A stretch of DNA of 64,000 bases from positions 21,159,207 to 21,223,206 of the forward strand of contig NC_064769.1 in assembly GCF_011397635.1 (NCBI RefSeq), read 5' to 3'. Position 1 is the first letter of the stretch; every line of letters begins with the position of its first letter. The notes below the pieces were generated by a model, which was given only the letters and a program-made list of their open reading frames with translations, searched no databases and was not told the origin of the DNA. The position numbers and the translations under genes are program-made. Positions 11,433 to 63,947 of the stretch are shown piece after piece. This DNA comes from Epinephelus fuscoguttatus. Its lineage: Eukaryota; Chordata; Actinopteri; Perciformes; Serranidae.

Positions 11433-12020
11433 AAGTAAGTAAGTAAGTAAGTAAGTAAATTTTATTTATATAGCACTTCTCACAGAGAGGACTCACAAAG
11501 TGCTTCACAAGATAAAATACAAAAAATACAATAACAGAAACAATGCAAAATACACAAATACAAATAAAAAGTAAAGTGCAGCGAAATGCAGAGATGATAC
11601 AATGGACAATTAATGGAACGCAAGCCTAAACAGATGTGTTTTTAACTGCTTTTTAAAAATGTCCACGGAAGAGGCCGCTCTCAGCTCATGAGGTAGTGCG
11701 TTCCACCATTTCGATGCAACAGCCTTAAAGGCTCTATCACCTTTCGTCTTTAATCTTGTGTGAGGAACAGTAAGTAGGTGGCCTTCAGCGGACCGCAGTG
11801 ACCTGACAGGACAGTGAAAGAACACCAGATCCGTCAAGTATGCAGGTGCTTGACCATGGAGGGCTCTGTAAGTGATGGTTAGAATCTTGTGCTGGATCCT
11901 GAAATTAACAGGGAGCCAGTGCAGGGGTGCCAGGACTGGAGGGATGTGAGTGAACTTATGAGATCTGGACAGAAGCCTGGTGGCAGCGTTCTGGACTAGT
12001 TGTAAGTAACATGGCATGAC
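11433..12020 (-). mobile_element. 5'-truncated L2/CR1-type LINE with end of reverse transcriptase ORF
   Basis: The minus-strand frame 11,610-12,017 (135 aa) carries the hallmark C-terminal region of fish non-LTR reverse transcriptase ORFs: LQLVQNAATRLL, PVLAPLHWLPV, KTKGDRAFKAVASKWWNALP and LKTHLFRLAF. Downstream on the minus strand comes a short 3' UTR and a terminal (TTAC)n tail (about 11,433-11,457), typical of this LINE type. Everything 5' of the last ~400 bp of ORF is missing. The frame is still open, suggesting a fairly young insertion. Confidence 0.8.
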
Positions 12021-13340
12021 TGATATACAAATGTTACTTTAATCATTTTAATATCGAACACCATCTTTCAAAAAGGGGGCTGCACTGTAATAGAAAGAGA
12101 GCAGCAGCCTACAAAAGTTGAATTCCTGTTCCTTTGAATAGTTTCCAACAGTGACAAGTTTGCTGGAGAGAAAAGTATGTGAACTTCAAGAGATACTTGT
12201 CAAACCACTCTTGCATCACAAACTACTTCTCCCCAGTCCATCAGTGTATTCCCAACTGTCATCTTCTCCAAAATATCGCAACACCTTCGGTATTTCCCAT
12301 GATTCATATTTCTTACAGTAATCCACAAATCTACAGAATATACCATAACAGTACCAAGTTATTTTGCCTGAGATCACTAAGCCTGGGCATTTATGATGAT
12401 GTTACAATAGCTACCATTATTATAGCTCAGTATGCCTGTGTAAGGGGGTGGTGGGGGGATGGGGACATTTCTATTAAGTACACTAGCTCCACAATCTACA
12501 GGGACATAGCACACTGGAATATTTGAAATAAAATAATGTCATATTTTAACGGATGACTCTTTTATGAGACAGCTTCTGTTCCTATTCATGTAAATAACTG
12601 ATAACTCTTCCTGTATATACACTCATCTCCAGTCCACTTGACCAGACAGAAGTACAGACGGGGTACAGCTGACGGTGCAGGTTAAAGCATGTATTCACTA
12701 ACTCGCTGAGCAAAGCAGAAAATCTCAGGGTAAACAAAACAATACACATGCAGCTCCTGCAGCGTTAGTTCTCAAGTATTAGTAGGAGGAAGTTGTCCGT
12801 GAATAACCAGCATGCAACAGCTGATAGAGGCAAATCATGCACAAAACAAAGCATGAAAACATGATCATGTGATCATGTGTGGTTTTTCTTTTGTGTCTGA
12901 TGATTAGTTGTTTTTACAGTACAGGCACAGTCCCTAGTTAAAAGTTCAATTAGTAATACATGATATATTGCAGCACACCTGCAGAAAAATACTGCACTGT
13001 ATACTTATTTTTAATCAGTGACTTTTTAGGCATGAAAAGCAGTTGTTTTTTTACCGAGACATCGCTGCATTTCAGGCTGGAATATAGCAATGAAAAGCAC
13101 ATACTTTAAGGCAAAACATGATCTTTTCCTAACCATAACTAAGTGGTTTTGTGCCCAATTCTAACTACTATGTATCTGTTGTTTGCAGAAATGTTCAATG
13201 CCAACTGTTTTCTGGCAATTGAGTCGCCTTTTAGCTCTGTTTTGGGTCTCCACCAGCTCCTGAAGGAAATATATATCTTTTTAGCAGCTAAATGCTTCAC
13301 TTTGTTCATCAGTTAGCCGCTAACTTTGGACCTGGTAATG
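12021..13340. other. Gene-free stretch
   Basis: No exon recognised. 13,095-13,165 contains a variant of the dispersed CCTAACCATAACTAAGTGG repeat also seen near 15.0, 17.35 and 20.85 kb. Confidence 0.45.
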
Positions 13341-15812: not shown

Positions 15813-15818
15813 TTTATT
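15813..15818 (-). terminator. Candidate polyadenylation signal for CD274
   Basis: AATAAA on the minus strand, about 160 bp beyond the stop codon of the terminal NACHT-like exon. It would give a short 3' UTR. Other signals further downstream cannot be excluded. Confidence 0.45.
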
Positions 15819-15978: not shown

Positions 15979-16468
15979 TCAGTACTTTGCAATTTGTGTT
16001 TGGAGCAGCAGCACCTGTTCTGTCTCAACTGCCCCCTTCAGTGTGGGGCAGTGTCCTGGGCAGGCCGTTACCAGCACCCTGCACTCTCCTTTCTCCATTA
16101 GAAACTTCCTCAAGGACTCGTCGAAATATTGGTTCCCTTCTTTGTACCCGTCCAACAGCAGCAGAGCCTCACTGCACCTGGTTAACACCGTCCTCAGCTC
16201 ATCCTCTGTTGATATCTTTTCAGTGAGAGAAAGCTGAGTCATTATTTCCTGATACAGGCTGCCCTTCACTTTGCTGCAGTCGACATAAAAGAGGAGTTGA
16301 AGGGTGCTGAGATCGAGGAGGTTCGAGAGGGCATGTGTGGACCCCTCAGTCCAAGAGGAGACCAGGATGTGGGCGTAAGTTGTCTTCCCGCTTTCTGGGG
16401 GCCCCTCAAGGAAGAGTGTCTCTCCAGCTTCTGGGAGTAAAGCTTGAAGATTCAGAGGCTGGCCCTTA
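15979..16468 (-). other. cd274: CD274 terminal exon: NACHT-like P-loop NTPase domain
   Basis: One 490-bp exon after a good acceptor (CTTGTTTTTCCAG). It encodes 162 residues plus a split codon. Visible motifs: Walker A GPPESGKTT; a beta-strand LLFYVDCS in the place where NLRs have a conserved second strand; Walker B ALLLLDGYKE; and RVLVTACPG in the sensor-1 position, where NLRs usually have TSRP. The extended Walker B reads DGYKE instead of the usual DGxDE, and the sensor Arg is Cys, so nucleotide binding looks more secure than hydrolysis. The frame stops after the core fold; no winged helix or LRRs follow. Family assignment is by motif and order, not by search. Confidence 0.75.
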
Positions 16469-19400
16469 CTGGAAAAACAAGCAGGATACGACTGTAAGCT
16501 TCACAGGCCCATATAACTATTAAAACATATCTATCAGCTGTGTCAACTGGATACGTTCACACACAACATTAAAATTCCTTGCGGGAAAATTTGCCTTGTA
16601 TATGGATGTCCAATCAGTGTTGATGGCAAATGCAGTCAACTGAAGCAATAAATTCCTCTGTGCATGCTACACTGACTGCTGAATCTGTTCTTTCTGCATC
16701 CAGCATCGTCATTTGACTTGGCAGTGACATATTTGGAGGCAAGGAAGAACTACTGTACAGGCTGGATTTCGCCTCTACATGGTGCTCAGAAATAGAACTT
16801 CCTTGTCTCTTTGCTTATATTGCAAACTAGCTACATTTCCAACAGCAAAAATAGCATCCTAAAATAAGAGTGCAGAGGATACAGCCAGCGGAAACTCTCC
16901 AGAATCTGAGTTGCTGAGAGCAAACACCAACTGGTGGTGCCTTTGCTCAAATTGCCCTCCAATGCCAATGAAAACGGAATCATTCTGCTGCAATCAATGT
17001 CAGCGTTTGCAATTTTTGTTGGATGCTGTCACTGATCCCAACCATGAGTGTTTGAGTTACAATGCATGAAAGATTAACTCCTCTCTTACACAGAGGTGTG
17101 TCAGGATCCAGAAAATAAATCAGAAAAGACCACCAAGATGCTGAGAGTGCACAGATGACCACTGAGGGAGTATTTCTGTCCACTAATGCTATGTTTTGGC
17201 CAACAAAGTAATAGCTATAGGCTAGCAGGCTAGTAATGGGCATCAGAAGCTTGCATCCTGGTATGTGTAGCCACTGGTGGCACTGCTCCACAAGGCAAGA
17301 TTTCTATTTCCTAGGATGGCGAAGGCATGACCCGCCCTACTTGTGCCTTTTATTGTTAACCTAACCCTAACCACTCTCACTCCTGTCCTTGTGCCTAAAC
17401 CTTATCAATTCAACCAATAAAGGAAGTGTGTAGTTGCCAATCAGAGGGAGAAAAGGGAGAGTTATGCCTTGGCCATCCTTGGAAAAAAACATTTTGCCTC
17501 AGCAAGCAAGGGAGCTCCACTTTCTCGGTCAACATAGAATGCTTCGCTTGACTACATTTACCATTAACACTGATTGTATATCAGTATATAAGATGGTCAC
17601 ATCAGCATTCATGACAATATCCATTTGTTTGGATGGAATCACGACTTTCTATAGTTTGGCTTGCAGAGGAAAAGTAAATCTGCCCAAACTTTTAATGTCC
17701 AGTTCAACTCTGGTGAATTCTGAATTGCACATTTATGCCACTGGCCAATATCAAGCCATCTTTGCAGCCTAACCCTGCTTCGCTGAAGCATTAACTGCTC
17801 AACAATAGGCGAATGGTTTGCAGACTCTCATATATGAGCATCTTTAAAAGCTGTGTGTACTTTTTTTCCTGCTATTGACCAAGCTAACGAGCTTGCTGAC
17901 TGACAGTTAAGTTTGTTAACTAACAGTTTGCAAGCTAGCTTGCTCATATATCAAAGAGAATGGGGGTAATTAAAACTTTTTTCAATAATTTGGAATAAAA
18001 AAAACCCAAATTGTTGCTGTTACTGTAAATAAGATCACAGAAGTCTGGCATCTGAACAATCAACATAGAAAATCTGTTTGTGTTTGTGACTCACTTGTTT
18101 TGCAACTTGTGGTGTAGCTCCTCCACACTGACAGCGTCGCAGTGCTGTTTCGCCTCTGTGCTGAAGGAATCGGAATAATGGGCTTTCAGAAACACCTCCA
18201 GATTTTTTTCCTCCACGCAGCCTGCAGACAAAAAAACAGACCAGATCATGACCATATCCGCGTCATTTCATGAAGAGGTAGCAAATGGTGTGAAAAATCC
18301 TGTAGATGTTTTCTTTCAGTCTTGCACAGAAGAGTGTCTGTTCGGTAATATTGGTGTGAAGTGCGTAGGTTTATAATTTTACAGTAAAAGGCATTTTTAG
18401 TATAATGCTGTTACAGAAAACTACAGATTCCTGGAACAAGTTGTCGCGCTAAATAAGTCTTCTCTGAGAAGCTTGTTGAAAACATTTAACTCTTAACTGG
18501 GTGTGGTAACGTCAGTATTGAACATTTAAAGGCAGTTTTCCACAAACATCCACAGGGGTTTTACTCAGTGCCACTGCAAATTAATTCTGTATAATCATTT
18601 TAGAACTGATTTACTGATTTCATGACTGACAGAGAATTAATTGGCCACTATTTTGTCTTTTTTCAAACAAAAAATATCAAACATTCACCAATTCAAGCAG
18701 CCAAATTGAGAGGACTTGCTGCTTTTTTATATTTTATGTGGAAGTTCACTGAATATCTTTGGGTTTTGGACTGCTGCTTGCAAAAAACAAGACATCTGTA
18801 GACATCATCTTGGGCTTAAGGAAAATGTGACGATGAAAAACTTGAGAGCCACTTACCCACATTAAAGATAGTTGTCTCCTCCGCAATGTCTTTATTTTTG
18901 TGAAGGTCTGATGGAAAAGAAGAGTGCCATTAGAAAAATGATACAAAGAAGAGTGTTATTGTCATTAATAAGTGAGTTATTTGATGTGTACACATACGAA
19001 TCTAAGATGTACTTTGTGCTGTGCAACTGTACAGAAAAGGGGATCTTTGCACTTCTGTATTCAAGAGAACAAGTGTTGAGTCCATGTAACATAATCAGCT
19101 TTCACACGATGCCGATACTTATCGTAATTCATGAAATAGCCGTATTTCAGCACCTTCGCTGAGCGTTTCACACGAATAACTTCAACCACAGGTCTCAATG
19201 CATTTACGTATGTTTTATGTTTTTGTAACTTGTAAGAAGTCATCTTAGTTTTAGCCCTTCTTGTGAAAGCACACTACGTGTTCGCTTGGTTGTGAGCAGC
19301 ACAGCCATCAGGAGCCATTAGCAGGGATTTTAGAATTTCCACTGTTAAACCACACATGCGAATGACTCATTACAATTTCATTATTTCTTTCATGGGTAAC

Positions 19401-22400
19401 TGCTAGTCAAGCAGCCAGGCAACTGGAGAATGGCTGATGTTGATCGGAGAGTGAATCATCACAGTGGAGGAAGAAATTATGATCCGCATTTTAGGATACC
19501 CCTGAATGTATAGTCTCAGTCTTATTCATGAGTGACAGAAACTGTAGGCGTCTTTTGTCTTGTGTCGAAATATCATGCAAATGCATCATTAGCAATTTGA
19601 CTAAAGATCATCTTGTTTGCAGCGAATCTACGGAGGCCCTAAAGGTCGCTGCTACTTTTGCACTACTTTTACATTACCTCAGTCGTGCCCAGCATAAGCG
19701 GGCACACCCTCTGTATTTTTGCAACTAGTGTTGAGACAAGTAGTGCAGGCTAGTTAAAGGGCCAGTGTGTAAAATGGGTTGAAAACAGTGACATCAGAGG
19801 TCAAATTCTAGATTGCAGGGCTCACTTGCTCACCCCTCCCGTCGGGTAAATGACGGTGGCCTCATAGGGACAAAAAGCCTTGCGCACGAGTTTTTCAGGA
19901 GTAGGTCTATCTAGCGACGAGGTGAATGTTTATTTAGAAATCTAAACCATGTTACGATATTGTAATGAATCCCTCACGAGCAGGAGACCAGAGGAACGTT
20001 CGGGAAAAAGGCCAGTTTATTTGAGCACTCCAACAACTCCGGTAACACTCCAGGGCGTAAAAGACTCCGTCCCAAACTCTGACTCTTCTAGCATAACAGA
20101 CACACTTCATACACACATACTCATTTACCATACTGAGTGGGCACCCCCTCCCCTCTCTGCTCCACCAATCTCCAGCCCGCACACTGACTGACAGCGTAGC
20201 CGGTAAACAGAGCTCAGCTTTTTAATTAGCCTAGCAATATCTCCGGACTATAGTAGTTGCAATGGACGACTTTGAACGCGATTTTGAAGAGTGTTCTTGT
20301 AGCGAACACAGACCCAGAGCCATACCTGTTTGAGCCGGAGCATACAGATGAGGAACTCCATGTGTTTGATGCTGTGCGGGCGAGAAGAGAGGCTGAATGC
20401 ACAGAATGGGATTTGGTGCTACTGCTACCATTGCTGGGGAGATATATCATCAGGAGGAAAAGCGCCGCAGAGAGTGCATCACAAGGAGTGAAGTTGCGTC
20501 TTCTTTTCCTCGCAGATGACGGTTCGGGTTCATTCTCTCCTGTTGCGTGGTAAGTGTGGTCCATTCGCAAACTTTATAACTAAAAAAACTTTTCACTACT
20601 CTCCATCGACAAACTACTAACACTCTCTGCTGTTTCCTCCTCCTTCCTTCCGCTGTCTTCATTGGTTCATTTATACACGCGAAACGCGTTCTCTGGCTGG
20701 CTGGATTGTCCGCTCGGTCTGCCGTACATACATGGTGGCGCAAGATGGCGACCACTCTAAAGCAAGGCCCTTGCTATATATATATATATATGTGGCCAGC
20801 CTTTTGTGTTACATCTGGACGCAGAAGCAGTTGGAAGCAAGAAGAGGTTGGCAGTTAGATTTAGGCAACAAAACTACTTGGTTATGGGTTAGGAAAAGAT
20901 TGTAGAAGTCACTAAAAAAAAAGCTGGCTTTGAGTGGTTTGTTGGTCTCGAACGCAGCCCCCCTTGATCAAACTCACCAAAATCACCTTTATATTTCTTC
21001 ACTGAGATGATATTGATTGTTTTGCGCTTGTTACGGGGAACTCGACTGAAAACATATTTTAAAAGGGGAATATTATAATAAAAGTTTGAGAGACACTACT
21101 CTACACTTTGGTATGGTTGTGACTGTGATTCCTGTCACTGCCATTGTGCCATGGCTTTGGTTATTATGGTAAGAAGCCTGTAAGGCATTCTTTTAATGGG
21201 TGTTACATTATTTGCACATGCACGTGTTGTGTGTTGCCAGTAAATTGTTCAGCTTTGTTTAGAGTGAAAGTGACCTACCTAGATGGTCAAACACCAAGTT
21301 CCTGGTACTGTGAGCGCTTACACCTATAGAAAGAAACATAGCCATTAATTTGGTGTTGATACAGCATGTGTGTGTGTGTGTGTGTGTGTGTGTTTATTTA
21401 AGTATGGATAGATGAAAAGGTGGAGGTTTGGCACTGTTTTCTTAATGTGACACTGAATGTTGTCTTTTAAATATCTAATATCAATCATGTATGTTATGTG
21501 CTATTGAAAGTACATGAATTAGTACATGTGATGGATCATGTGCGCGATTCTTTGTTTTCTTTATGGTGAACAACAAGACCTTTTTAGAAATTGGGACCTG
21601 ATTCCAGTTAAAAAATTCTGCCTGTAGGTTTCCAGCCCTGTAGCTGAAGTATCTTATCATGTTCACACATTCATATATAAAGAAACATGTAATAAACCTA
21701 CTATTGAAATGATAGAGGTGCTTGTTCAGGGGACTATACAAACAAGAAACGTGCTACACTAATAAAAACCACCCACGCATTTCCAAAACAGCTGCGCAAA
21801 TTCCCCTGCCACATAAACCAATACTAACACCATGGGTGTTTCCAAACTTGTTGGCTGGAACACGTCTCATCCAAATAGCAAAGTCATGGTCACATGTAAG
21901 CATGTATAGCAAATCACATGGTGGTGTAAACTTCCCTCGAGGAAAAATGGCAGACATTAAGGAGACAGATCTGATGTCTAAATTTTGTAATGTTTCAAAC
22001 ACTTCCTCTTTTCAGCAGCAGCGACTTGACTCAACATGTACGGATGTGTGTGTCAGAGCCTGCAGTGCCTTTCAGTTGAAATGACACAGTTGTTTACTGA
22101 CAGGGCACAAGTTCCTCTGGCCATCTGACAAAAAACAAAATAAGCACCACTAGGTTGCCATGGCTTTGACACAAGAAGGATATGCTTTAGATACTGACAA
22201 ATGAGTCACACACAAACTGAACAACTCTGTTCTGGTTGGGCATCAAAAAAGTTCAATTCTATTCTGGCCTAAATCACTAAAGTGTTTTGTAAAGGCTGTC
22301 ACAGGCATTGGCCGTCACAGTTAAAAATAAACCAGTGTGAATGCTTACAATGAGGAAATAATCAAGACTAAAAATAAATGAAAGTCCCATTCCATTTCCT

Positions 22401-25400
22401 GCAGATATTCTTTCAAGGCACATCCTAAAGGGAAATCCAGTCCTGCAGTGACCCCGCCTACTCTGCACATGTTGCCTGTTTTGCACAGTGCACACACTGC
22501 TGTCCTGCACACACTGCCTATCATGCACACACTGTCTTCAGGCTACAGCTTCAGTGTCACGTCGCTGTGTATTGTGCATTACGGCTTCATACATGAGTGC
22601 AAGAACAAATAATCCCAGCACCATTTGCACTCTGCATGGACATGAGAGTATTCCGATTTGTATAGTTTGTCTCCAATCTACACCTGCATTCTGTGTATGA
22701 CCGTGTTTGTTGTAAGCTACATGTTCTGAATTTGTGCTGTTCACATAAAGAATTGAGTGACTGGTTACCTTTTCGTCGTCGTCGGTACACAAGCACTGCA
22801 ACGATAATGACGACCATTACCACTCCTATGCTCAGTACGATGAACACAGCATCGGCCTTTACTGGCGGAACAGCAACAGATATTTCGTCTGTGAAAAGAG
22901 TGAGAAAAACTTGTAATTCAGCAATGACAGGGTTAGGACAAAAAAGTGCTGCCATGCTTTTAATGGTTGACCACTATGGAAATAACCAAATATACCGAAG
23001 ACAAACCATTGTGAACTTCCCCTTACTGATAATGAACTAAAATATGCAGATGTTAAAAAGTGACTCATACTTGTGTTATCTTTTTTTTATTAGCCGTGCA
23101 TGCAGACAGAGCCTCTTTTACTTTTCGTCTTTTTGTCGTATTTGCAGGCTGTTTTTATTTATTTAAAATAACCTGACAAACCTTATATTCCTAGCTTATC
23201 AGGTTCCAACATGCTGCATCCAAAGGAGCAAATAATCCTTTGCATACATGTAAGCAGAAACATCTGCAGCCTACATCAAACACACAACCCAGCCACACAT
23301 TTCCGCACAACACAAAATCTCTTGTAACAGAACTCCTACACACTTGTGAATCGAAGCTCAAACCCAAACACACCACCTACAACTTCACTGACACGCAAGT
23401 GAAATTTGTAACTTTGGAAAGACTGAGCTTGAAGGCTGCTATTTCTCATCTGTGTTAGTAATCACATTTGAAGTGGGTTGACAGCACATATCTCAGGAAA
23501 CAGCAGTTAGGTGATAAGTACACAAATGATTGTATTTCCTGTCGTCAGATAACAAGACCTCACCAAACTGAGAAGTGCAAGCTGATTTTTCTTGTGTATA
23601 AGTTAAAGTAGCACAAATTTGCTTCAGTTTTCTTACATCCATGGGAAAGTGTTTAACAGAGGTACCATGAGGGGGAAAAAAATGAAGAAGTACTGATGGA
23701 AGAAGTACTAAGATGATTTACTTAAAGGTCCAGTGTGCAGGATTTAATGGCATTTAGCGGAGAGCTTGCAGAACTGAAAATTCCCCTGTGTGCCAGGCAT
23801 GGAGGAGAACTACTGTGGTTGATGCAAAAACAAACACAAATGGCCCTATCTAGAGCCAGTGTTTGGTTTGTCTGTTCTAGGCTACTGTAGAACAACATGG
23901 TGGCTCAGTATGTAGATATAAACAGCTCATTCTAAGGGTGCTTTCACACCTGCCCTGTTTGGTTTGGTTCAGTTGAACTCAGGTTCATTTGCCCCCTAAG
24001 TGCAGTTCGTTTGGGCAGGTGAGAACACAGCAATCGCACTCAGATGCTAACCAAAACAACCAGACCTTCTTGAAGAGGTGGTCTTGATGTGGTTATAAAC
24101 ACACTGGTGCGGTTTGTTTGTGGTGAGAATGTGTTCTGACCTCAACCTGAACCAACTGCAGTCACATCACACACTGTTTGGGTTAAACATGAGCATGTTA
24201 CAGTCCTGGAGGATTATTAATGTGCACCTCCTCCTGTACTGCCTTAATATGCACATTCAGCGCCTCGTTTTCAAACTGTATGGTTTGACTAAAATGAACA
24301 ATGACAGCAATATAGTCCACGATGACCAGCGCTAACATCAACCTGCGTAGCTGTCCCTCCATTGTGACATTAGAAAGTGTCACATTTATCTTACAAGTGT
24401 ACTCTTCTTCAGCGTTTTGTTTACTTCCTGGATTTTTCCCACATGGAAATTCTGACCAATCAAGAGCAGCTTGCGCAAGCATTTGATCTGGTCTGCTTGT
24501 AAATGCTACCGTGAGAACACGAACCAACTCTAGGCAATTATGCAACTTTGGAATAAAATTAGTCCCTGCTCCTCTTCTTCTTTTTCTTCTACTTCTTCTT
24601 CTTCATAAGCTCTCCTGCTTTTTCTTTTGGTTACAGACATTTCTTTTTCGCTATTGTTGTAAATAAATATTACCCTTTTGTATACTCATCTTGTTTCCTA
24701 TGTTTGTTACAGCCTTTGAGCTGGCTTGTTACAATTATTTGTATGCATCATACAGATGATTATATTTTGTATGAATCTGTATCTGCAAAGTAACTTATCA
24801 AATAAATGCAGTGGAGTAAGAAGTAAAACATTTCCCTCTGACAAGCAAAGGATTTAAGAAGTGTAAAGTACCTCAGAATTCTACTTAAGCACTATACATG
24901 AGTCAATGTACTTGGTTACATTCCACCGCAGGACACATCATACTGATGACTGTTTGCTTGCTTTCTTTTGATTCCTTAATCTTTTGGAGGGGGAGCGGGT
25001 CATGGGGAGCTGACAGGAAATGACAGGGTAGTGACAGGGCATGACATTAAATTAAGTTCCCTGGCCAGACTTGACCTGGAGATGTTGCAAATAAATGGTC
25101 AATATATATATATATATATATTTTTTTTTTTTAAAAACTGTCTGCTTTCATTTTCTCTCCAGTTTAGTATTTTTTAAGTAGAAGGAAAGGAAATAAAAAC
25201 ATACCTGGAATATCAAATGTTGCAGAGTAGCCACCATTCATAAATGTACACGTGTAGTTGTTTTTGTCTGACGATTTGACGCGTATCTGACTGGTGACTT
25301 TAAAAAGCTGGTTAGGAGATGATTTGTCTGTGCTATTGGAAGTGATGCTCCGTCTGTGTCCATCCTGCCACCTAACAGGGGACCGCGGGTATCCCTCCGA

Positions 25401-26971
25401 CTGGCAGGTCAGCAGCACTTCGTCCCCCTCTTCAACCTTCTGAATGTGTTTAGTCACATTTTTATAAGGTGCTGGAGGAGAATCAGACAAGAAGAATATG
25501 CAATAAGTACCTTGTTTTAACTGCTGATTGAATGTTAAACTGCATGTCGTTGTCTCAGTGCCTGTGCTCTGTCTGCAATGCAATAAAGTCTAATGAGTCC
25601 TATCGAATCTGATCCATGAGAATCTCAGGATTATGATCAAGACATCTTGCATGATTAGAAGAAGATCTCGAGGAAAGTTTATATGAGCCAAAAGCATTTT
25701 TTAATATATTGAGTAATATTGGTGTTAGTTTCATTTTCACAATGACTGCTGCGCTGGCTGCCCAGAAATGACCACAGGCTATGGCCCATCCTTCCCAGAA
25801 CAAAGCCCCTGGAGTCTTCCCCTTTTAAAGACCTAATATATTATAGTGCTACACTGTCACAGACTCTTACCTGTAACAGACAAAGTTATGGTTTTATAAT
25901 CGGCTCCTTCTTTTGTCTGCACCAAACACTGGTAGTTGCCGGAGTCATTTATCCTGAGCTTGGAGATCTGTGAAGTGACAAAAGAAGACAGTAGTGTCTT
26001 GGTTTAAACTAAAAATCATGAATGAAAATCATAAATTCAGTTGCGTAGTCCCACTTTTGCTATCTCCAACACTTATTTCTAGCACATCTCTTTGTTTATT
26101 GTTGTGCTTTAGACAAACACTACTGTCTCTGTCTCTATTTGGCAGTGATACCTGAGTATCTGGTACTGTGAACACAGAGAATAATGGGGAGATAAATATG
26201 ATACTCTTGAGGTAAGCAGTGCAGTTTTTATGCCATCCTGTGTGTGGGGAATGTGAGCCTTGGTAATTCCTGACAGCATGAAAAGGAGCTGGCAAGGGTG
26301 CCCAGTAGCTAAGTAGGTAAAGCAGGCGCCCATGTACAAAGGCAATGGCCCTTTGCTGTGTGTCATCCCTTCTCTTTCATGCCTAAAACTGTCCTCTCCA
26401 GTAAAGGCAAAAAAAAATCGTAACAAAAAAAAAAAAAAGGGGGGTGAGGTAAGCGAGTAAGTTAACCACATCACTTCATAGGAAATTTGACAGGAAATAA
26501 CCCATAACAAATTCTATGTGAACCTGAAGACATCACTGCCAGTACTGACCTCTAACTTGGCCCAGCCGTCCTGCAGGTCATCAGTGAGAAGCCTGACTCG
26601 GCCCACATAGTCTGGATCCCGGGACGCCAGGTTCTCCCTCCAGTCGTCCATCCGGTAAACATCCCGAACCAAGCCGTTGCCGATCCAGTGCCAGGTCACC
26701 TTCAAGTCAGCAAGAGGACTTGATAGTTTGGGCTGAAACCTGCAGCCCATCACAACAGCTCCCCCGAAATCCGACTTGTACGTGGTTTGCTCTGCCTCAA
26801 CAGTGAACAACACTGCAGGGGGATAACACAGAGTAATATCAGGATTAACACAGTCATGACATGTGTCTGTTGTACATTTCACACCACATACCTGAAAGAG
26901 AGATTCTACCACATACCTGAGAGGGACGGCTGAAGCATGATCTGCAAAACTAGAATAAAGGCCCAGTCCAT
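15979..26971 (-). CDS. cd274: PD-L1 (CD274) orthologue with a C-terminal intracellular NACHT-like NTPase domain
   Basis: Eight coding exons: 26917-26971, 26550-26812, 25871-25967, 25205-25471, 22769-22888, 18857-18907, 18095-18221, 15979-16468. All have consensus AG/GT borders; phases chain without conflict (1470 nt, 489 aa plus stop). Order: signal peptide 1-18, IgV about 19-138 (Cys pair in VMGCRF and YQCLV), IgC about 139-227 (LLTCQSEGYP, NYTCTF), TM about 241-261, RRRRK, linker 268-335, P-loop domain 336-489. The GADYK motif in the last V strand is shared with mammalian PD-L1, where it contacts PD-1. N-glycosylation sequons include NVT, NST and NYT. Family role: T-cell inhibition through PD-1. 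The tail lacks mammalian PD-L1 tail motifs and carries Walker A GPPESGKTT (349-357) and Walker B LLLLDG (429-434). Orthology is supported by divergent plgrkt next door. The fusion is read from splice logic only; separate or alternative transcripts remain possible. Confidence 0.85.
18095..18221 (-). other. cd274: CD274 cytoplasmic linker exon (phase 1 to 2)
   Basis: Bounded by GTCTGCAG and GTGAGT. Encodes residues about 285-326 (GCVEEKNLEVFLKAHYSDSF and onward), predicted helical and immediately N-terminal to the P-loop domain. No family recognised. If the donor is not used, the frame hits TGA inside the GTGAGT itself, giving a tail ending HHKLQNK. Confidence 0.65.
18857..18907 (-). other. cd274: CD274 short cytoplasmic exon (51 bp, symmetric 1-1)
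   Basis: Bounded by TTCCATCAG and GTAAGT. Encodes LHKNKDIAEETTIFNV between the membrane and the linker exon. Because it is phase-symmetric it could be skipped without a frameshift. No known motif. Confidence 0.6.
19750..20780. mobile_element. Repeat unit carrying a broken gene fragment
   Basis: Starts near AAAGGGCCAGTGTGTAAAAT, a common teleost repeat edge, and ends near CAAGGCCCTTGCTATATA, next to a short (TA)n. It lies in an intron of CD274 on the opposite strand to the fragment it contains. Boundaries are approximate. Confidence 0.4.
20261..20549 (+). pseudogene. P2X7-ballast-like gene fragment, frameshifted
   Basis: A first-exon-like stretch opens MDDFERDFEECSC from ATG 20,261, then shifts frame, after which the other frame reads DPEPYLFEPEHTDEELH and ends near a GTAAGT donor at about 20,550. 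Acidic PEPYLFEPE-type openings followed by a cysteine-rich domain are common in dispersed fish genes annotated as P2X7-intracellular-domain-like. The cysteine-rich part is not seen here. With a frameshift and TE surroundings it is likely dead. Family call from memory, moderate at best. Confidence 0.35.
22769..22888 (-). other. cd274: CD274 transmembrane exon
   Basis: Encodes a short stalk, a hydrophobic segment of about 21 residues (AVFIVLSIGVVMVVIIVAVL) and a YRRRRK stop-transfer. Phase 1 to 1, bounded by TTTTCACAG and GTAACC. Intron retention here would add about 60 codons of unrelated tail before a stop. Confidence 0.8.
23723..24530. mobile_element. Two adjoining MITE-like repeats in the CD274 intron
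   Basis: 23,723-23,936 has AAAGGTCCAGTGTGCAGGAT, CCAGTGTTTGGTTTGTC and AGATATAAACAGCTCATTC, phrases of a very common teleost MITE (also around 36,300 and 37,210-37,318). It runs straight into a second repeat starting GGGTGCTTTCACACCTGCCC and extending to about 24,530. Neither codes. Confidence 0.55.
25205..25471 (-). other. cd274: CD274 IgC-type exon
   Basis: Phase 1-1, as usual for Ig domain exons. Contains DEVLLTCQSEGYP, a Trp in VRWQDG, a FKVTSQIRV strand and NNYTCTF; closely matches the layout of the PD-L1/PD-L2 membrane-proximal domain. Confidence 0.85.
25871..26812 (-). other. cd274: CD274 IgV domain, split over two exons
   Basis: Exon 26550-26812 runs from VLFTVEAEQTT to GWAKLE. Exon 25871-25967 supplies ISKLRINDSGNYQCLVQ, then GADYKTITLSV. 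The first Cys (VMGCRF) and second Cys (YQC) lie in different exons. Phase is 0 at the internal intron. Mammalian CD274 keeps the V domain in one exon as far as I recall. Confidence 0.8.
26296..26440 (+). repeat. tRNA-derived SINE copy 1 (diverged)
   Basis: Shares AAAGCAGGCGCC, CATGTACAA and the pyrimidine-rich 3' part with the copies at 27,529-27,718 and 62,527-62,720, and ends in a poly-A run. The promoter boxes are degraded. Confidence 0.55.
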
Positions 26972-52016: not shown

Positions 52017-52989
52017 ATGCTGTGGAGATTGTCTCTCGCTGTGGCCGTGGTGTGCGTCGGTGGCATATGCAACTGTGTGAAGGCAGACGTGATGAGCAGG
52101 CTGATCATACCGAGGGACTACGGGGTGAAACTGTGCGGCAGAGAGTTCATCAGAGCAGTCATTTTCACCTGTGGTGGCTCCCGGTGGAAACGATCCACGG
52201 AGGGGGGCTTAGGTGAGTCAACATTACTGCTGTACTTTCATTCATTGCTTCATTTGTGTGATTGGACAAAATGCTGTGTTATACATGTTTCAGAACATAA
52301 AGACTATGTAGAAACATGTCCAAGATATAGTGTAAAAATGTATTTCTCATTAAGGTTAAGGATGATGAAGGGACGAGAGGGTGCACAGGCAAGGAGCTAT
52401 AATTGTTTTCTTCATTCCTACTTTAATTTCCACTGAGCACATTACTGTAGCTGGTGACTTATTACACATCAACAGGTTAGGCTGCCACAGGGTTTTAATA
52501 AACAGCTCCCCCCACATTTTAGTTGACTAACAAAGCCTCATATTTCAGCACCACAGTCAGCTCATGTTCATTGTTAATCAGACAAATTCTTTTTTTTTTT
52601 TTGCTATGACTAAAGGTGCATTTGACTCATTTCTTTCCCCAGATTCCTTCCAGTGGGGTTCCCTTAGTGACATTACAGCAGAAGACAACCAGCACACCTG
52701 GCAATCCAGCGCAGAGCTCACAGTAGATAACCCCTCTCAGCTCCATCCCAGCTCCTCTTACTCCCTGGCAGACCTCCTGGCTCTTTTCAGGGCTCGAGGA
52801 GACGGGCAGCAGCCGTCGCTGAGTGACTTTGCCTCGCTGAAGAAGCCTCAGCTGTCCACAGTTTCAGGCGAGCAAGCTACTGCCGACTGGCCCGTAGCGA
52901 GCAAGAAGAAGAGAAACTTTTCCCTGGGTGTGGCGGGGAAGTGCTGTAACCAGGGCTGCACTAAGAATGATATCGGACGCTTGTGCTGA
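52017..52989 (+). CDS. rln: Relaxin-family prepropeptide (RLN/RLN3-like)
   Basis: Two coding exons, 52017-52212 and 52643-52989 (543 nt, 180 aa), split by a phase-1 intron in the C-peptide as in all insulin/relaxin genes. Signal peptide about 1-23. B chain ends with CGREFIRAVIFTCGGSRW: Cys40, Cys52 and the receptor-binding RxxxRxxI cassette (Arg42, Arg46, Ile49). Cleavage sites RWKR and KKKR (153-156) bracket a C-peptide of roughly 93 residues. A chain ends KCCNQGCTKNDIGRLC, the CC-x3-C-x8-C pattern. Family role: secreted two-chain hormone acting on RXFP receptors. The position between plgrkt and jak2 corresponds to the human RLN1/RLN2/INSL6 cluster, so teleost rln is favoured over rln3 paralogues, although the B chain is RLN3-like. 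Only one relaxin gene is present here. Confidence 0.93.
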
Positions 52990-53309: not shown

Positions 53310-54639
53310 CCATATTGTCGCCTGCAGTCTGTCTGGTGAAACTACGTTCATACTCGCACGCGCCAATATCACACATTAGTGTCATTTAGGCTGCTGTGAA
53401 CTTATTGCCGGCCTCTGTTCACAGCATTACGCCTGTTGGATCATTTTCCGTCAAACACCCCGGGGACACTACAGCAAAAGAGTAGGTTTCCTTTTTTCTT
53501 TTAACCCTTTGTGACGTAGATAAAACAAATGAATTAAATACAGACAACCCCCTGCGTAAAAATGTTACACTATCACTAAACACAACTTATAAGCTGTTTG
53601 ACTGTGGGTACAATATGATGAAGCTTTATGTGACAAGTGAACCACATTGAGAATAAAAAAAGTACAAGTTTCATGACCATACTGTACTAAAATGTTTTGT
53701 TTATTAAAAGTATATACACACCTGGAATATACAGCACATCCATCTTTCAGTATTTACATCCATATTCGCATAAATGTATTAAAGGTACCACCAGGCTTTA
53801 TATCATTCACACTGCACCAAAATAAAATTGAAACAAATGGGAAAAAAACACCAGTTAAATCTGTTTAAACATCTTCTGTTTTTCCAAATGTCTTCTGAGG
53901 AAAAATGACACACAGAATAATCACATTTGCTTTTAAACACCACTGTACATATATCACAATAATGGCTGTTTGGGTGACAAAAACAACCCATTAGGCAGCA
54001 ACATTTTCTATCTTGGCATTATAGCAACTCGGCAGGAACTAACAGTCTCTCATTCACAACAGATTTGACATGACCAAAATATTTAGGCCGGCGTGATACT
54101 GCCCAGAGGTTAGAGCGTGGGAGCTTCAGAGACACTCTGTATGTTTTGTGGTGACACGCTCTTTACAGTGACTCATACTTGACGATGTGAGGACATCCGT
54201 CGTTTGACATTATGTGTCTCCCTCCCTTAATGTTGTAAATACAACACTGGATTTTTTTTTTTTTTTTTTGTATGTAAGAGGGAAAGATGCTCTTCCACAA
54301 ATTAGATTCTTTTCAAGTCTTTTCAAGGACTGACTGTCCTCTCACCAGTTAAGACCATGCAGCGAAAAGTGAAGCCAATGCAGAAGTGCCAAAAGCTGCA
54401 GTTCATCCACTTGAGGCTGGCTCCAAAACTGAGTCAGTCCCCACAGACACCCATGTTAGAATGCCCAACTTTACAACAGAAAAAACATAGAACACAGCTT
54501 ATTTCCCCCTTCATGACAACTGTACAGTGGTGATTTTTTTTTTTTAATATAACTCGCCGGTTTAAATCTTACTAAGGCACAAAGCTATGCTGCTTTGAGT
54601 GACAGGCTGTCTGCTTGGCGTATGACTCAGATCCACCCC
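53310..54639. other. Intergenic rln to jak2, left part
   Basis: No gene. Poly-T run at about 54,250-54,270. Confidence 0.45.
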
Positions 54640-55488
54640 TCGCTCCTCGTTACTTTAAAAAAGTAATTAGTTATAGTTACTAGTTACTTTCCCAAAAAAG
54701 TAACTGAGTTAGTAACAGGGTTACTGCACTGTAAAAATAATTAATTACCTGAAAAAGTAACTATAGCGTTACTATTTTTTATTAAATGCTCAAATATGTC
54801 AAATTGCTTGGGCAGCCCCTTTAATGGAACTGTAATGAAACTCAACATTGAATATGTTAAATGAATGAAACTGACACTTAATAGAATAAATCATTATTAT
54901 TAAATATTGTACACTTATCTACACTACACTCCATTGTGCGTGCGTGTGTGTGAGGGAGAGGGAGTGCGGCTGTGGAAACATCCTGCAGTCCGAGATACTA
55001 TCATGCGTTTGAATAAGTTATTAGACAGATATATAGAGAGAAAGGCGACGTTTAGAGAGCAAGCCCAAATAAGCAACTCCACTTTGGAAACAAGTCCAAA
55101 AAAAACGCAACCTGTGCCTACCAATATTTGTAAGCGACTTTACAAAAACACAAGCCCAAAGTCGCGGACCTGACAAACCTGCTTGTGAATACCCGCCCTA
55201 CTCTGCCTCTGATTGGTTTATGATGAAATGTTCCTCTCCCTAAGCCAATCATCATCACTTATGCTTCCCCCTCACCTGCCCTCACCAAAGAAGAAACACT
55301 TTAAAGCTCCGCTGAGAAGGAGCTGGTCTGAGTGAAAGCCGCTTCAGTGAACTAAGGTAAAGCCGAGTAACGGCGCATTTTATTGTGAGTAACCATAACG
55401 GCGTTATAACGGGGGAGACAGTAACTTTTTTGATTAGTCGTTACTGAAAAAAGTAGTGCCGTTAGTAACGCCGTTATTCCCATCACTG
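54640..55488. mobile_element. Non-autonomous hAT-like element
   Basis: Left portion repeats AGTTACTTT, AAAGTAACT and GTTACT words; right end reads GCCGTTAGTAACGCCGTTAT then TCCCATCACTG, the well-known terminal sequence of a teleost hAT-type repeat. The left terminus is degraded. The central 430 bp has no transposase-like frame. Confidence 0.55.
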
Positions 55489-55519
55489 TTTATTCATTAT
55501 CAGTATCTGCTCAACCTAC

Positions 55520-55801
55520 TAAAGGTTGCGGGGAACCCCAGCTGACACTGGATGTGAGGCAGGGTAGACCCTGGACAGGGTGCCAGATGATTGAAGGGCC
55601 AACACATCGAGACAGACAACCATTCACACTCACATTCACACCTACGGACAATTCAGAGTCGCCAATTAACCTAACCTGCCAGAGAAGCTGCAGAAAAGTG
55701 ATGCTGACATGAGGAGAACATGCAAACAAAGACCCAGGGTTAAACCTGGAACCCTCCTGCTGTGAGTCAGCAGTGCTAACCACTGCATCACTGTGCCAGC
55801 C
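55520..55801 (-). repeat. SINE-like dispersed repeat, second copy
   Basis: On the minus strand begins GGCACAGTGATGCAGTGGTT then AGCACTGCTGACTCACAGCA and GGAGGGTTCCAGGTTTAACC, and continues with the phrases of the copy at 11,045-11,287. Confidence 0.6.
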
Positions 55802-56029
55802 TATGTCTAAGGGTACCACAAGAGCTGTCTTGATAAGAGACAGTGAGGAGCTGATATTTACTTTGCCTATACTCAACTCTTTTTTGCACAGGCAGTTCAG
55901 TGATGACCTCGCAGTTGTGGTCCAAAATCCTAAGCCCTATTTCTCAGAAACCAAGACAAGAATGAGTAAAAATTCCTCAAAGGTGGCTTTGAGTATGGTC
56001 TTGACACCAAGCTCTTTCCCAAGTACAAC

Positions 56030-57305
56030 ACTCTAAAATGGGAATCCACAAACCAATGGGTGACATCATGGCGGCTACATCCTTTATTTTATACAGTCTG
56101 TGGTTGAAACTGGTGAGAGGAAATAACTTTCAGTCAGTAACATTTGGAACATAAAGGAAATTATCCCCTTGTGACAAATTGATCCACTTGTGGCCGACAC
56201 TGTAATGCATATCATAACACACACACACATATTCAACATATACACCAGCTGTTAAGACAACTTTAAATGGGTGGTGGCAAAATAATGACATGAACAAAAG
56301 TCAAGATTTAAATAAAGTTGTCACTTGTAACAACAAGCTGCAGAAAAAAAAAGCATCTCCCTTCATGACTTCTTTCTCCATCTTCAGAAAATATATTTGT
56401 ACATAAAGTATCCACAGGCAGCCTCCAACACTGAAAATCTCATACTATATTTATAGAAATATACAAATTACTAATTACAAAGGTGACATCGTAAGTTCAA
56501 AAACACTGTATGAGTCCATGATATGACACTATTAGACACCCACCTCAGTTATTGCTGTCTCTTTAATGTACTGGAATATTGGCAGGATGTATGAAATTAT
56601 ATAAACGAACAACAGTTGATACAAAGTCTGACCTCTGTTATGTGGAAAGATCTGGGTGCTTCTGCTGTTGCTTCATCAGCTCAGAGCACAGAATCATCCT
56701 CAATGTACAATGAATATCTGTAAGTCCACTGTAACTGCAGGAAGGTAACTCAAAAACACCGGTAGAAATTTCCCAATGGGTCCCCTTGTGGCAGAAGTAC
56801 AGCTGGTGCTTTACATTCATGGTCTGTCCTTTATCAGGCTTAAAACTATCCAGCAGTTCACTTCCAGTCCTTTATAAATGTTCAGCCACACATGAGTGGT
56901 GCCTTGAGGTTCAGGTGTGCAGTAAGATGGCTGTTTGGAACAGTCTCTTTGGTTTGACAAAAGAAATTGCTCATTTGACAGCGATTAAAGTACAAAATTC
57001 AAAGGACTGAGCATTAACAACATGCTACTTGTTGGTAATACATACATTTTTTGGTACAAATATTTATTTTAAGGCTTCAATATTCCACAGAAGTCCCTTG
57101 AAATAAAAAAAAAATTGTGGATTCTTAGAAAAGTATCATTTTTCCACTCCATGTCTATTGTCTAATTCTATTTGTAAAACAACATATACAAATAAAATAA
57201 TTTATCCCACCATGAAATGTTCTTAAAGGCATCTGATATATCTTCTGTTTGTTGTCTGAGTCAGATGTAGTGTAGTAATAAATCAGATAAATCGTAAATG
57301 CCATA
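56030..57305. other. Intergenic or jak2 3' UTR region
   Basis: No coding exon. 56,035-56,105 matches a common teleost repeat (AATGGGTGACATCATGGCGG). If jak2 uses a distal polyadenylation site, part of this could be 3' UTR. Confidence 0.35.
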
Positions 57306-57719
57306 TTAAAGGAGCACTACAGGATATAAACAGCTGATCTATCACTCAGAGGTTGTCTGCACAAAGCTCTCAATATGGAGGTGCCTTAGCTAGCGGTTAG
57401 CAGCTACTAGTGCTAATGGGGTAAACCTGAGGGGAACTGGAGGGTGGGCGCTACACTTTCGCCTCTACGCTGTCCTGACATTAGGGGTAACTTGCGTGTG
57501 AGTGCGGTGCTGAGCAGCAGTGATAAGCTAGCCAGTGGAATACACACGGACTACAATACATGCGAACTAATATGCATGGGGGTCGGACTGTCTACCACAA
57601 CAAAGAACAGAGAAGCTTGGATTCTCTGCTCAGCACATCATTACTCCACTGTATCTCTACAGAGCAAATAGTTGTTTGCTGCTATATTAAAACTCTAATA
57701 TCTTATAGAGCTCCTTTAA
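57306..57719. mobile_element. MITE with TTAAAGGAGC terminal inverted repeats
   Basis: TTAAAGGAGCAC at the left and GAGCTCCTTTAA at the right (10 of 12 terminal bases pair). 414 bp, non-coding. Confidence 0.7.
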
Positions 57720-57886
57720 GAAGTGGGTTAACTGCTGAGAAAGTGAATATGCCCGTTCATCATCCTTATTTGGGTAAATCTTAAATAGGCTGACAGACAT
57801 GCAGTTCACCAAAAGAAAAACTAAAATCAACTTCACTTTGGACTAGGGACTGTACGGCTGCAGTAAACCCAGACATCTCCAAGACA

Positions 57887-57892
57887 TTTATT
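57887..57892 (-). terminator. jak2: Candidate proximal jak2 polyadenylation signal
   Basis: AATAAA on the minus strand about 90 bp past the stop codon. A short 3' UTR would be unusual for jak2, so distal sites are possible. Confidence 0.3.
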
Positions 57893-57979
57893 GTTCTGTT
57901 AAGATCCGTGAGGACGGCCCCCCCCCCTCCCCCGGGGGAGTCAGCACCTAAAGGTCAAAGGTTCAGGGATCAATGCCGC

Positions 57980-63947
<5,968 letters not shown>

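Follow-up and report, generated by a model that had tools for sequence, protein, structure and literature searches.

A predicted NACHT core in the cytoplasmic tail of PD-L1 of the grouper Epinephelus fuscoguttatus

The gene encoding PD-L1 (CD274) in the grouper Epinephelus fuscoguttatus very probably continues in frame, as judged from genomic DNA, into a long cytoplasmic tail that carries a NACHT core. The gene is located within a window of 64,000 nucleotides, which is the whole stretch of DNA analysed here. What the letters of the DNA themselves establish is the identity of CD274, the in-phase exons and a homology to NACHT with an intact Walker A. The complete proposal, that PD-L1 with a minimal NACHT core most like that of NLRC4 serves as a membrane-tethered scaffold for clustering and reverse signalling, we regard as an even bet. 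PD-L1 signalling backward into the cell that bears it is a long-standing question, and the mammalian tail offers no domain for it. A fish PD-L1 joined to an NLR-type NACHT would unite in a single polypeptide the checkpoint control of adaptive immunity and the inflammasome machinery of innate immunity, and suggests that fish PD-L1 may signal inward to its own cell besides outward to T cells.

The CD274 gene and its neighbourhood

The gene runs on the minus strand from 26971 to 15979. Rebuilding the chain from the sequence gave eight exons spliced in phase into a product of 489 amino acids, every intron being GT-AG and every phase in agreement. This reproduced exactly the eight-exon, 489-residue chain with 222 residues past RRRRK that an earlier note on this DNA had described; the eight exons of that note were right, and a candidate in-phase exon of 45 nucleotides (21323-21279), inclusion of which yields a product of 504 amino acids, had been overlooked. 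The predicted product consists of a signal peptide, PD-L1-type IgV and IgC domains, a transmembrane helix, the stretch RRRRK and the long tail. Exon 1 (26917-26971) encodes the start methionine and the signal peptide, exon 2 (26550-26812) most of IgV, exon 3 (25871-25967) the end of IgV with GADYK, and exon 4 (25205-25471) the IgC domain. Exon 5 (22769-22888) encodes the stalk, the transmembrane helix (Kyte-Doolittle 3.39) and the RRRRK stop-transfer signal. With YRRRRK coming after this single strong helix, a cytosolic position of the tail is expected.

Downstream of exon 5 we noticed, in order, the candidate 45-nucleotide cassette exon (21279-21323, GVSAHSTRNLVFDHL), which is in phase (1-1) and uncertain, a cytoplasmic linker exon of 51 nucleotides (18857-18907, phase 1-1), an exon of 127 nucleotides encoding a pre-NACHT segment (18095-18221, phase 1-2) and the last coding exon (15979-16468), which encodes the NACHT core, including Walker A, Walker B and the strand of sensor-1, and ends in the stop. 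With the 45-nucleotide exon included, the phases of the tail exons run 1-1, 1-1, 1-2 and 2-stop. An AATAAA polyadenylation-type hexamer lies about 160 nucleotides beyond the stop (15813-15818, minus strand). Within a CD274 intron there is also an open frame of 115 amino acids (20226-20573, minus strand), possibly repeat-derived, with no Pfam match.

Searching the ectodomain against PDB sequences, two-domain PD-L1 chains scored 101-103 bits and PD-L2 chains 85-86 bits among the best 60 of 197 matches; in the same set CD276, at about 65 bits per V-C pair, came first by total (132) only through the summing of two pairs. In the 1.05-Gb genome, where 150 of 219 candidates were scored, the only high-identity ectodomain match was on contig C18, at the locus of the window, and the next of the 51 matches in total were about 30% identical. 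The window also holds a JAK2 exon (62955-63257) and a relaxin/insulin-like ORF (52531-52986; Pfam E 6e-4, slightly below the cut-off), and JAK2 and the relaxin genes make up the neighbourhood of CD274 in mammals. The ectodomain scores, the single high-identity locus and the nearby JAK2 bear out the assignment of the gene, made in the earlier note, as an orthologue of PD-L1. The fish gene shares with mammalian PD-L1 the order IgV-IgC-transmembrane helix, the GADYK motif and the JAK2 neighbourhood, whereas the mammalian tail has about 30 residues and no domain where the fish tail has a NACHT core. By eye, the translation shows LFTV where the mature V domain begins, and further on GADYK; F19 and D122 are named as the PD-1 contact residues of PD-L1 by Kondo et al. 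2025 (PMC12151841).

Elsewhere in the genome, at about 8.93-9.49 Mb of contig C23, a dense cluster of Ig-V frames, about 30% identical to the V domain of PD-L1, accounts for 19 of the 51 ectodomain matches; this may be an expansion of a B7-like family or of some other family of Ig receptors. An open frame at 11610-12038 of the window (minus strand), which we take to resemble the C-terminal region of a reverse transcriptase ORF of the LINE type, gave only a sub-threshold Pfam match to a different family. An Rfam scan of the 64-kb window gave no match.

Predicted joining of the ectodomain and tail exons

To compare the linker exons with other possible exons of the region 22768-16468, candidates of 30-150 and 60-250 nucleotides were tried, using a simple score based on splice-site frequencies. 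Exons 18907-18857 and 18221-18095 were each the sole in-phase, stop-free candidate whose two splice sites were as strong or stronger. The parallel search for the 45-nucleotide exon returned two candidates, 21323-21279 itself and 18907-18857. Codon usage was scored with a model trained on NLR frames of the same genome and on the PD-L1 ectodomain exons, so that only the tail exons, not being part of the training set, provide a fair test. In the predicted frame the scores were +0.096 for 18907-18857, +0.248 for 18221-18095 and +0.169 for the last exon (16468-15979), which scored -0.042 and 0.022 in its other two sense frames. As a statistic the codon score is weak: exons 1 and 3, although among the training exons, came out slightly negative. 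The 45-nucleotide exon has good splice sites and a score of -0.172, and this negative value, though it covers only 14 codons, is why we hold the exon to be uncertain.

We also asked how often an open frame as long as that of the last exon is seen elsewhere in the window, covering positions up to 15900, 27100-51000 and 54500-58000. Only one other ORF (1646-2152) contains an equally long open frame (486 nucleotides), and the best of its 7 overlapping windows scored -0.118. An open frame by itself is therefore weak evidence, and it is homology that carries the case for the last exon.

The predicted in-frame fusion, as the earlier note had proposed it, gains support from the phases, the splice sites and the codon scores. 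It has to be weighed against an arrangement of two genes, in which PD-L1 would be short-tailed, stopping around exon 5 or 6, and NACHT would belong to another transcript that has its own first exon. Such an arrangement would fit the long introns (about 3.9 kb from 22769 to 18907 when the 45-nucleotide exon is skipped) and the further AATAAA hexamers present in CD274 introns. The methionines argue in the opposite direction. There is none in residues 253-417 of the 504-residue form: methionine 252 lies in the transmembrane helix and the next, 418, is past Walker A, so that a protein made separately and with its P-loop intact would have to start in an unseen first exon. In addition, the linker exons are the sole in-phase candidates with sites as strong, and long tails within a single gene have been published for 9 of 13 ray-finned fish (PMC12151841). 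We consider two genes very improbable.

The NACHT core: identity, motifs kept and parts missing

The last exon matched the Pfam NACHT family (PF05729) with E 1.6e-9 and 38.3 bits (curated cut-off 26.7), over positions 2-148 of the 167 of the profile. The whole tail matched with E 4.1e-9, again above the curated cut-off, and shuffled tails gave no NACHT match (0 of 6). When the tail was searched against PDB sequences, NLRC4 chains took the first five places (E 7e-5 to 6e-3) among 16 matches up to E 10, and their alignment runs through Walker A, the next helix and Walker B; the other 11 had E of at least 0.68, with no NLR among them. In the reverse search, an NLRC4 fragment run against the 1.05-Gb genome detected the NACHT exon as second of 4 matches with E up to 1 (E 0.0012; 6 candidates scored). 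The best match in that search was locus L001 on contig C2, which resembles NOD2. Aligning the tail by hhalign to an alignment of 9 NACHT proteins of the same genome gave a probability of 89.5 and a score of 39.4, the maximum in 40 shuffles being 8.4. An hmmsearch profile of the same 9 proteins failed to recognise the tail (E 0.53, third of 2001, behind 2 of 2000 shuffles), a failure that we read as narrowness of the profile, since it is dominated by close copies.

That failure would also fit a P-loop that came from a different NTPase family and matched NACHT as an artefact of the Walker motifs, as would the weak Pfam matches of the tail to nSTAND3, NPHP3_N, AAA_25 and AAA. However, all four families stay under their own cut-offs, while NACHT is above its cut-off over the profile span given above; the NLRC4 alignment passes from Walker A to Walker B, and the hhalign alignment spans the core. 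Descent from another family is thus highly unlikely, and the PF05729 match, NLRC4 as the nearest relative and hhalign together uphold the NACHT-like call that had been made from the letters alone.

In a genome-wide scan for NACHT, 98 of the 202 candidates were scored as matches, each with at least 93 bits, and the PD-L1 tail was not among the 98. Roughly 80 of them sit in open frames of more than 500 amino acids, and loci L002-L008 presumably belong to a large fish NLRC3-like expansion. Searching the genome with the tail gave, beyond its own two exons, one match (E 5.4) and no close paralogue. Relatives of the NACHT exon were confirmed in none of 47 pattern stretches of prokaryote genomes and in none of 13 stretches of viral contigs. 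A single-sequence AlphaFold (AF2) model of the 162 residues of the last exon, with a pLDDT of 42, was too poor to use.

Walker A, GPPESGKTT at residue 364 (numbering here is that of the 504-residue form), matches GxxxxGK[ST]. Walker B, LLLLDGYKE at residue 444, keeps the DG and the E of hhhhDGxDE and has K in place of the second acidic residue; in the PDB alignment the Walker B of NLRC4 reads LLDGYNE, and NAIP likewise has the pattern DGY[N/K]E. The sensor-1 arginine is replaced by cysteine, VTACP of the tail aligning to VTSRP of L001 (TSRP or TTRP in relatives). The frame stops right after the NACHT core, with no HD1, WHD, HD2 or LRR found; the N-terminal effectors CARD, PYD, BIR and FISNA were not found, and above cut-off Pfam shows only Ig domains before NACHT. 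The tail is like NLRC4 and NAIP in its nearest solved sequences, in the reverse genome search and in the DGY[N/K]E form of Walker B, and differs from them in ending after the core, lacking their CARD or BIR and the domains that follow.

NLRs depend on the WHD for their ADP-locked switch, and as the WHD is absent, the NACHT of the tail cannot work quite like theirs. The nucleotide-dependent switch suggested in the earlier note is, in its full NLR-style ADP-locked form, unsupported, given the missing HD1 and WHD and the altered sensor-1. With HD1, WHD and the effector domains absent, the core would be a scaffold or a partner in NBD-NBD contacts rather than an autonomous inflammasome.

We considered whether a truncated or pseudogenised NLR lies beside PD-L1. 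A tblastn of 7 NLR frames of the same genome against the window gave a best E of 0.45 outside the tail and only 0.99 for the tail itself; no other NLR match was convincing, and since this low-sensitivity search barely detects the tail, distant NLR remnants could be missed. An ITIM-like SLYQEI (412-417) and an ITSM-like TTYAHI (371-376) are probably coincidence; they lie inside the NACHT core and their number is, by our estimate, near chance expectation, so we did not count them as signalling motifs.

Long tails in other fish and a possible scaffold function

A long conserved PD-L1 tail, encoded by one late exon (exon 8), was described in the nine ray-finned fish mentioned above, bichir included, with strong conservation across ray-finned fish (Kondo et al. 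2025, PMC12151841); these authors note that the long tail had, in principle, been reported by Hu et al. 2023 (PMID 37486225). In the grouper, the NACHT exon is coding exon 8 when the 45-nucleotide exon is left out, which fits the exon-8 tail, and we are confident that the two are the same tail, with presumed identity at the level of residues. A tail of this kind is thus not special to the grouper. Kondo et al. did not find it in salmonids, indicating that it is dispensable in some fish. They point to charged residues and to hydrophobic patches in the tail and suggest an interaction with the membrane; their main text identifies no NACHT domain and contains none of the terms NACHT, NTPase, P-loop, Walker, ATPase, NLR and nucleotide-binding.

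Among the open-licence PubMed Central papers searched, by titles and starts of abstracts, we found no description of a NACHT domain in PD-L1. Two papers mention PD-L1, NACHT and teleost as unrelated terms in the text covered (PMC8875540 and PMC12562908), and in the text covered of a 2025 review of fish NLRs (PMC12436146) PD-L1 and Ig domain each occur 0 times. Hence, of the structure once thought to be undescribed, the long extension is in print and the NACHT identity apparently is not. This identity appears new to the searched literature, though an automatic Pfam label may exist in protein databases, and it would explain the nature of the published tail.

The combination of an Ig receptor and NACHT is already known from the sea cucumber. 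AjNLRC4 has Ig-like and Ig domains outside, two predicted transmembrane helices and a cytoplasmic NACHT, without LRR or CARD, and its authors knew of no earlier report of Ig and NACHT in one protein (Chen et al. 2021, PMC8699970). It dimerises upon infection, and its NACHT-bearing part binds beta-actin with a Kd of 5.87 uM (PMC8699970). Fish PD-L1 shares with it the extracellular Ig, the membrane passage, a cytoplasmic NACHT called NLRC4-like and the absence of LRR and CARD; AjNLRC4 differs in its two predicted helices and in being a microbe-binding phagocytic receptor. The comparison is one of domain layout.

Given the fusion and the NACHT identity, we see roughly equal chances for and against the following mechanism. 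The exons would be joined in one mRNA, and the small in-phase linker exons would hold the NACHT core directly beneath the membrane. Engagement of the receptor would cluster PD-L1 and so bring NACHT cores together, and nucleotide loading would favour their self-association or the binding of partners, candidates being cytoskeletal proteins such as actin, to which AjNLRC4 binds, or NLR proteins engaged by NBD contacts. The outcome in the PD-L1-bearing cell may be reverse signalling, internalisation or damping of the inflammasome, and PD-L1 would then be a checkpoint ligand and, at the same time, a clustering-dependent receptor for its own cell.

Alternatively, the tail may be of NACHT descent and no longer an enzyme or a switch, serving trafficking, membrane association or stability of PD-L1, roles of the kind that Kondo et al. 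put forward for long tails (PMC12151841). The lost sensor-1 arginine, the missing HD1 and WHD and the basic juxtamembrane residues are consistent with this, as are the hydrophobic patches and the membrane interaction described by Kondo et al. as observation and proposal respectively (PMC12151841). On the other hand, Walker A fits the consensus fully, the Walker B core LLLLDG is retained, and the long tail is strongly conserved over ray-finned fish (PMC12151841). We regard this alternative as a serious one that somewhat less probably applies than the scaffold mechanism.

A wider reading of the scaffold mechanism is speculative, and we think it unlikely: ancestral PD-L1 would have been a two-way receptor with an NLRC4-like NACHT, comparable to AjNLRC4, kept in many ray-finned fish, while tetrapods and salmonids would have kept only the ligand half. 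Once PD-L1 is engaged by PD-1 or BTLA, its NACHT cores would come together, and in the cell that carries PD-L1 this would either drive or quench responses of the NLR/inflammasome kind or of actin. We also observed that the small exons at 21279-21323 and 18857-18907, both symmetric (phase 1-1), could be skipped in frame, giving linkers of variable length between the transmembrane helix and NACHT.
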